Positions 161 to 22,790 of a stretch of DNA of 32,618 bases are shown here, in pieces. Below the pieces are notes generated by a model. It worked only from the letters and a program-made list of their open reading frames with translations, did not search any database and was not told where the DNA came from. The stretch lies in NCBI GenBank assembly GCA_937923345.1, contig CAKZVJ010000233.1:1-32618 (forward strand), written 5' to 3'. Both the position numbers and the translations under genes were made by a program. Origin of the DNA: an uncultured Saprospiraceae bacterium (GTDB taxonomy: Bacteria > Bacteroidota > Bacteroidia > Chitinophagales > Saprospiraceae). Within the stretch, counting starts at the first letter, position 1. Every line of letters starts with the position of its first letter.

Positions 161-310
161 GCGCTCTGGGGAGAAGTGATATGAACTGAGCTGGACGACT
201 AATGAATGGCTGGCTAGCGATGGATGAAACGATAGTGGAATACGGCGCTAGATAGACCATGAATAGGAGACTAGCTTAGTGAATACAAGCGGATCACCAG
301 ATACAAGCGC
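161..310 (+). ncRNA. Structured repeat, copy A (candidate RNA, family not identified)
   Basis: This element aligns with 22430-22553 (copy B): 66 bases from GATATGA to GAATAC align without a gap at about 70% identity, and both copies then reach GAATACAAGCG after 36-37 bases. Three helices can be drawn: P1 185-192 with 273-280 (ACTGAGCT/AGCTTAGT, one G-U pair), P2 206-209 with 257-260 (ATGG/CCAT), and P3 214-219 with 246-251 (CTAGCG/CGCTAG). The same helices form in copy B with compensatory changes, and the G-U pair favours the + strand. Outer pairing GCGCT/AGCGC (161-165, 306-310) is possible. The conserved blocks CTAATGA, TGAATAG and GAATACA recall group II intron domain I from memory only; no reverse transcriptase is nearby. 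The rest of 1-504 shows no gene. A CAAT-rich low-complexity stretch follows at about 319-352. Confidence 0.55.
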
Positions 311-22330: not shown

Positions 22331-22429
22331 ATCTCTACTATTCAATTTGCTTGAATAAGTATCTCCTTTTTACATATTTGTCATTTTTACTCAAATTATT
22401 TTAAGTACAGAGTTTTAGTTTTTGTGATA

Positions 22430-22630
22430 GGGGTAGCAGCGATATGAGCTGCCCTTGATGGCTAATGAAGGAATGTCTGACGACGGATGAGTGGATGAGC
22501 GAATACTAGTCAGACATATCCTGAATAGTCAGCTAGGGTAGGGAATACAAGCGAATGACCCGACCCCGTCTGCGTGGCAGTGGGTAGGCCTTTGAGCCTC
22601 GGCCAATTGGGAAGGCTACGGGGAATCACC
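22430..22630 (+). ncRNA. Structured repeat, copy B (candidate RNA, family not identified)
   Basis: This is the second copy of the element at 161-310. P1 is CTGCCCT/AGGGTAG (22449-22455, 22535-22541), P2 AGGA/TCCT (22469-22472, 22519-22522), and P3 a perfect 9-bp ATGTCTGAC/GTCAGACAT (22473-22481, 22509-22517), nearly continuous with P2. Compared with copy A each helix has two paired substitutions. Copy B has an extra hairpin domain at 22564-22623: CCCC/GGGG around GTAG-G-CCTT/AAGGCTAC. An outer GGGGT/ACCCC pair (22430-22434, 22563-22567) would compete with that hairpin. No open frame of note overlaps it, and no maturase, transposase or IscB-like gene is nearby. Confidence 0.55.
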
Positions 22631-22635
22631 GTAAT

Positions 22636-22790
22636 TAATGATCAATGTTCAATCCTTCAATGTTCAATCCTTCAATGATCAATCCTTCAATGATCAATTC
22701 ATCAATTCATCAATGATCAATTCATCAATGATCAATGTTCAATTTTTCAAATTAATAAATTAACAAATCAACAAATCCTCAATTAAAAAC
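22636..22790. repeat. Degenerate CAAT-rich tandem repeat
   Basis: The clearest unit is 15 bases, WTCAATYCWTCAATG, repeated with variation through about 22755, then fading into an AT-rich AACAAATC stretch. It directly follows structured repeat copy B; copy A is likewise followed by a shorter CAAT-rich run. There are no unique spacers, so it is not a CRISPR array. With copy B it fills the 542-bp gap before the Asp-box gene. Confidence 0.75.

Follow-up and report, generated by a model that had tools for sequence, protein, structure and literature searches.

Two copies of a dispersed, folded Saprospiraceae repeat family, an expanded variant of the orphan Flavo-1 motif

Introduction

Flavo-1 appears as a Bacteroidetes candidate in a list published in 2010 (PMC2864571). 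According to the part of a Flavobacterium psychrophilum transcriptome study that deals with it, its matches lie sense or antisense to transcribed regions, many fall outside them, and transcription is inconsistent (PMC9723704); the entry in a review places it among the abundant small RNAs and leaves the function blank (PMC9029176). Among the titles and abstract openings of the open literature on Flavo-1/RF01705, none describes an expanded form, a closing outer helix (P0 below) or mobility. Many genomes have at least 15 Flavo-1 copies, and three genomes have 40, 37 and 39; the 28 above-threshold copies of G585, a genome in a single contig, showed by eye no replication-strand bias, with the origin assumed at position 0.

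Several other kinds of repeated folded sequence are relevant to the comparison. REP/BIME and IS200/IS605-derived elements are dispersed, folded and intergenic and lie without target duplication, those of the IS200/IS605 or REP kind having separate end hairpins. Group II D1D4, HEARO and omega RNAs are large folded RNAs present in several copies, and integron attC sites carry R boxes (GTTRRRY / RYYYAAC) and stand in cassette arrays.

The DNA analysed here, called the window, is the whole 32,618-nt stretch of contig CAKZVJ010000233.1 (positions 1–32,618, forward strand) from an uncultured Saprospiraceae bacterium, the assembly of which (GCA_937923345.1) consists of 335 contigs. A first-pass annotation made from the letters alone had described two distant copies of a structured RNA in it. 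The two belong to a dispersed folded family which is an expanded variant of the orphan Flavo-1 motif.

Structure of the elements

The two copies had been placed at 161–310 and 22430–22630, and both are present about there on the + strand; their true extents are larger, 161–312 and 22424–22631. The aligned cores are identical at 92 of 135 positions (68%), in agreement with the earlier figure of about 70%. One fold fits both copies, as proposed, but it is a single long rod and not three separate helices.

Copy 1 (161–312) runs from P0 to P0' plus CC, and the model R1 matches its core at 166–301 with 132.4 bits. The 5' strand of P0, GCGCT (161–165), pairs with AGCGC (306–310), which is followed by CC and then AAA. 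The conserved 5' half of the core, consisting of P1 and the AGYGATATGA loop (166–184; alignment A1 and a two-piece profile), and the conserved 3' half, GAATACAAGCGGATCACCAGA (281–301; alignment A1), enclose an expanded distal rod of approximate extent 185–280, which, from the alignment and covariation, stands in place of the short Flavo-1 apex. At the position called P6, copy 1 has a 4-nt linker only. Copy 2 (22424–22631; R1 match to the core at 22429–22563, 136.6 bits) carries there a large variable side hairpin, CCCCGT...ACGGGG (22564–22624), recognised by its sequence and predicted fold. The P0 strands of copy 2, GTGAT (22424–22428) and ATCAC (22625–22629), could pair judging by their sequence, and its 3' end is CG, most copies having CC.

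In the family as a whole the outermost helix is P0, with five pairs; a pyrimidine/T run immediately precedes it, and its 3' side is followed by CC and then A's. Of 141 copies tried, 131 passed the P0 search score, and all five pairs are formed in 125 of these, in 36 sequence versions, a fit that is partly built in since the search seeks complementarity. The flanking T and A runs do not lengthen P0 (pairing 301 against a shuffled mean of 314). Inside P0 lies P1 (RGGG/CCCR and variants), and beyond it the highly conserved loop pair AGYGATATGA/GAATACAAGCGGAT. The loops of the distal rod show a repeated ATGA/GAATA pattern able to form tandem G-A pairs, and the rod is capped by a short terminal hairpin. 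Between P1' and P0' there is a linker of 3–4 nt in 45 of the 131 copies and a spacer of at least 9 nt, often a P6 hairpin, in the other 86. P0 brings both ends of the element together, and the distal rod and P6 are exchangeable modules.

Longer elements were seen in the related genome G017 at seven loci (L427, L428, L429, L433, L435, L436 and L437), with an extra insert of about 120 to more than 200 nt in the apical loop; these inserts resemble hairpin repeats elsewhere in G017 and hold no ORF by eye. An autonomous version, in which an ORF would separate the two halves of the core, was sought, and no such ORF was seen by eye. Among 100 listed matches to the 5' half (121 in all), 14 had no match to the second model, R2. 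About six of these could be read far enough and have a larger apical insert; the rest run off the contig end, except L432, in which a 3' half is absent within 330 nt.

Folding and covariation

Copy 1 is predicted to fold much more stably than its own shuffles (z −5.6, with none of 200 as good), and the + strand stands out more than the reverse complement does from shuffles of that strand (z −1.7). Copy 2 gives z −2.9, with 1 of 200 shuffles as good; P1, the rod and P6 are formed in its predicted fold and P0 is absent, the folded range having ended 1 nt before the P0' end. When the two copies are compared over 43 modelled pairs, 23 pairs are unchanged, 10 are changed on both sides and still paired, one is changed on one side, one is gapped, and eight are lost in one of the copies, with G-A or A-G in several cases. 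The compensatory changes reported earlier are therefore real, and their number, given as six, was understated.

Alignment A1 comprises 20 of 21 extracted cores from the source genome, aligned by MAFFT in a structure-free manner, with the 43-pair rod drawn by hand; the omitted core has an aberrant 3' end, and one false match and one copy cut by a contig start had been set aside earlier. Paired cells make up 90.2% of A1 (shuffled 70.5), 34 of the 43 pairs show double-sided changes (shuffled 21.5), and the covariation score is 0.546 (shuffled 0.184; slid controls at most 0.127, over which the structure is somewhat favoured, having been drawn on the same sequences). None of 500 shuffles matches A1 on any of the three measures, and all slid controls are likewise exceeded on every measure. 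The larger alignment and the search for further homologues, both proposed as checks, thus turned out in favour of the structure, dozens of copies in the source genome fitting the same model. The non-canonical pairs of A1 (MAFFT) are 62 G-U, 3 A-C and 55 G-A. A G-U pair would read as A-C on the opposite strand, so it is the element's + strand that folds, and the selection on structure that had been claimed is strongly supported for this one strand.

Relationship to Flavo-1

A scan against Rfam, at the gathering threshold for the whole window and at E ≤ 10 for both copies, gave only chance-level matches. Group II D1D4, HEARO and omega RNA, named in the first-pass annotation as candidates, found no support, the window copies having no Rfam match to them at any threshold used. 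Neither copy gave a match at the Flavo-1 gathering threshold of 42 bits; because this defining test failed, the window copies are called Flavo-1-like and not Flavo-1.

The link to Flavo-1 comes from relatives of the window copies. Two short R2 matches, from class-level relatives, pass the Flavo-1 threshold with 53.1 and 42.4 bits. Among 20 long loci from other genera, eight match Flavo-1 on the element itself and in its orientation, though none reaches the threshold (E 0.0066–2.9, best score 32.0 bits). A two-piece core profile made from long elements only was run on 45 loci of the Flavobacteriaceae type, and in 36 its best match coincides with the Flavo-1 site given by Rfam; the type is our label for family f24 and its like, which are rich in Flavo-1. 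The profile scores are modest: 21 of the 45 exceed the best score among 45 shuffled loci, three of those 21 being off target, and scores for four long elements are 34 to 64; the evidence therefore lies in the position of the matches. R2 itself matched none of the same 45 loci, presumably for want of the rod.

The long elements possess the core of Flavo-1, in sequence as well as in the pairing around GAU-NG-AGYGG ... AGCGGAUAGC, and they share with that motif P1, the core loop sequence, the strand, the multi-copy intergenic placement, the phylum and the habit of occurring many times in a Bacteroidota genome. Flavobacteriaceae-type copies were found by eye to have mostly AGC...GCT ends followed by CC or TC and A/T, which equals the P0 and CC end of the window family. 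It is very probable that the core is homologous to that of Flavo-1. In contrast, the short apical hairpin of Flavo-1, of about 28 nt, is not found in the window copies, where the apex is a rod of about 100 nt; the spacing of at least 9 nt between P1' and P0' in most copies, the number of up to 113 copies per genome and the failure of the Rfam model are further differences. The arm of about 100 nt, P0 and the variable side hairpin are new over Flavo-1, and P0 probably belongs to Flavo-1 too, though it is absent from the Rfam structure line.

The source genome also holds 11 short Flavo-1-like matches of 78–129 nt, all below the Rfam threshold (L396, L399, L401, L403, L405, L407, L409, L411, L413, L415 and L417), several of them beside GCGGAGCGC-type arrays.

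Distribution and genomic setting

In place of the two distant copies first reported there is a dispersed family, with about 70 members in the source genome. Many of these relatives had come to light in a plain DNA search of that genome with copy 1. With 150 of 993 candidates scored, R1 matched 74 places at E ≤ 0.1, of which 72 had E ≤ 3e-6 and two were weak (E 0.004). Among 60 relatives R1 matched seven genomes, the source included, and of the five other genomes of the same genus two had no match. The model R2, built from 101 matches from 100 sources (alignment A3) after outlying and duplicate copies were left out, gave 113 matches at E ≤ 0.001 in G017. With eight candidates scored per genome, at least 19 of 398 genomes of the family had R2 matches; in the phylum set it was 3 of 395, the source being counted in both. 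The presence across Saprospiraceae is patchy. A pattern scan of named genomes gave at least 104 stretches, and all among the 80 listed belong to Saprospiraceae assemblies but one, from Ruminococcus, which is probably a chance match; viral contigs gave no pattern match.

Many copies in the source genome lie near contig ends (e.g. C178:16520–16657, C324:9253–9387 and C88:14433–14569). Short-read assemblies thus seem to be interrupted by the elements or by repeats next to them, in which case identical copies of recent origin may escape notice.

None of 70 copies in the source genome overlaps a called ORF of at least 150 aa, shorter overlapping ORFs having been discarded by the script, and the downstream gene is antisense in 42 of 63 cases (p = 0.011). 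Such placement and orientation would suit a riboswitch-like cis-regulatory leader or a bidirectional terminator between genes. The antisense bias, however, was not repeated elsewhere (18/34 in G004 and G005, which are of the same genus as the source genome, 12/29 in G017 and 26/51 for Flavobacteriaceae-type copies), and an upstream T run with a downstream A run is, by reasoning, unlike an intrinsic terminator on either strand, so that a leader or terminator is highly unlikely.

Persistence at shared loci

Comparison with sister species gave 12 syntenic pairs involving 10 copies of the source genome, with matching flanks 63–86% alike; the sister stretches had been chosen around elements, by which locus sharing is over-represented, and a doubtful thirteenth pair (L089/L158) was not counted. 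For four copies of the source genome (L036, L046, L089 and L115), inspection by eye of one or two sister genomes showed no match where one was expected. In the ten syntenic pairs present in the structure-fitted alignment A3, 238 pair positions are unchanged, 96 are changed on both sides and paired, 23 are changed on one side, 51 are broken and 12 are unpaired in both. The similarity between syntenic copies often does not exceed that between paralogues.

Of 15 G501 loci compared, 12 were found among the G703 stretches analysed, which were mostly chosen around elements, and all 12 have the element; the other three were uncovered. At these 12 loci the element has a mean identity of 87%, the 120 nt upstream 74% and the downstream side 86%; with the downstream side so close to the element, there is no clear excess conservation of the latter.

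That several loci are common to different species fits fixed functional genes and speaks against mobility. The elements could then be small RNA genes of one large family, in which every copy would be transcribed alone, with the core binding one protein and the rods and P6 varying with target or partner. The structure kept at syntenic loci by the 96 double-changed positions, the folding of one strand only and the 87% identity of the G501/G703 elements against 74% upstream, though 86% downstream, agree with such genes. Against them, the 60 nt upstream of 70 copies show only the pyrimidine/T run and no other position-specific signal, gene orientation is inconsistent between genomes, and the copy number ranges from 1 to 113, with 379 of the 398 family genomes unmatched at eight candidates scored each. 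The passages on Flavo-1 in F. psychrophilum, with matches sense, antisense or outside transcribed regions (PMC9723704), point the same way. Small RNA genes are on this evidence a serious but unlikely explanation.

Copying, flanks and exchange of modules

Genome G263 holds two copies with one mismatch between them, alike from the 5' end of P0 through P0' plus CC. Upstream they are unrelated; downstream about 8 nt of A/T are similar with a one-base shift, after which they are unrelated too. The 5' end of this copied pair is sharp at P0, and the 3' end lies at, or a few bases past, P0' plus CC. No recombinase was apparent among the genes between the two copies, ORF starts being judged by eye.

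Among 28 accepted copies of the 113 in G017, 36 pairs are at least 94% identical (mean 96%; the pairs are not independent). Their flanks are near random, with 35% identity at −15 to −5 and 32% at +5 to +20, and directly beside the ends identity is 53% at −4 to −1 and 73% at +1 to +4, which fits a preference for T and A. Target duplications of at least 4 nt occur in 6 of 131 copies against a shuffled mean of 5.9, i.e. the elements lie without target duplication. A MITE of a DDE transposase was considered and rejected on this count. Integron attC R boxes were not noticed by eye at the P0 ends.

Modules are exchanged between copies. Of 38 near-identical pairs in G017, 31 have different P6 hairpins (below 60% identity), and at one locus common to G501 and G703 (flanks 96% and 93%) the apical hairpin is wholly different (L444/L472); rods and P6 therefore move separately. 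Because P6 differs between near-identical rods, some of the G017 pairs may represent rod conversion between resident copies, and whole-unit copying thus rests mainly on the G263 pair. Copies of the source genome are mostly 70–87% alike to their nearest paralogue, which makes recent movement there doubtful.

Candidate enzymes and the mobile reading

A reverse transcriptase domain (RVT_1, PF00078) was found in 7 of 12 element-bearing genomes tested, and so was Y1_Tnp (PF01797), G000 being included in both counts. At E ≤ 1e-5 neither was detected in G017, which is 97% complete and the richest in copies; RVT_1 was likewise absent from element-bearing G002, G004, G005 and G097, and Y1_Tnp from G005, G010, G126 and G164. 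Reverse transcriptase and Y1 transposase are unsupported as mobilisers for G017, where loss after amplification or an assembly gap may play a part.

These counts bear on two explanations. The first is a hairpin element acting at the DNA level, of the type of IS200/IS605 or REP and mobilised by a Y1 transposase, for which the folded strand, the lack of target duplication and the Y1_Tnp hits can be cited; Y1_Tnp is, however, missing from the five genomes named and present in 5 of 7 tested genomes without R1 or R2 match. The window family also differs from REP/BIME and IS200/IS605-derived elements in its core rod of about 135 nt, its conserved loops and its ends joined by P0 in place of separate end hairpins, and this explanation appears quite improbable. 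The second, a SINE-like RNA copied by the reverse transcriptase of a group II intron or retron, agrees with a folded molecule containing G-U pairs, with ends set by a helix plus CC and with the RVT_1 hits. It has against it the five genomes in which RVT_1 was not found and the missing Rfam match of the window to group II, HEARO or omega RNA, and we give it a very slim chance.

A non-autonomous mobile element, recognised as the folded strand, is the reading we favour, with prospects that are about even; they are not put higher since the copied G263 unit lacks a 3' boundary defined to the exact nucleotide. A putative host or mobile enzyme would recognise the folded strand, as RNA or single-stranded DNA, and would insert the element, with a pyrimidine/T run on one side and an A run on the other, without target duplication; resident copies would also swap rods and P6 hairpins among themselves.

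It is tempting to speculate further that Flavo-1 and the expanded Saprospiraceae form make up one modular mobile class across Bacteroidota, driven by neither reverse transcriptase nor Y1 transposase, in which the fixed P0/P1 core would serve as a scaffold for recognition, with rod and P6 swapped as whole arms between resident copies, even at one orthologous locus; this is tentative, and its probability falls somewhat short of even. What has been annotated as a small RNA motif may in fact be an element that is modular and spreads, and the closing helix, the defined unit and the exchangeable arms offer a concrete alternative to the Flavo-1 "sRNA", namely a structured dispersed element. If so, many "sRNA" annotations in Bacteroidota would need revising, and a mobilising enzyme outside the usual reverse transcriptase and Y1 families would await discovery.

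Neighbouring repeats

Other repeats were observed beside the elements. In G017 many copies have mosaic repeats on the 5' side and mostly unique DNA on the 3' side; chains of mosaic small repeats with AAACAGCGAAG-like units lie upstream of the element at L072, L176, L179, L197 and L198, and in five loci translated upstream of G017 copies no repeated coding sequence was recognised, the flanks being mosaic repeats. Heptamer-like tandem repeats often adjoin the elements, of the types TCAATGA and ATTATAA (window 22640–22770 and the flanks of many copies, among them L005 and L086) and, in G017, AACTGAC or AGCTTGC. Beside copy 1, positions 1–144 of the window belong to a second dispersed repeat, the end of which, GGAGTGGACTCACC, is the inverse of the GTGAGTCCGCTCC end in the L009 copy (from about 1671); from its sequence this repeat looks like a MITE of about 190 bp.
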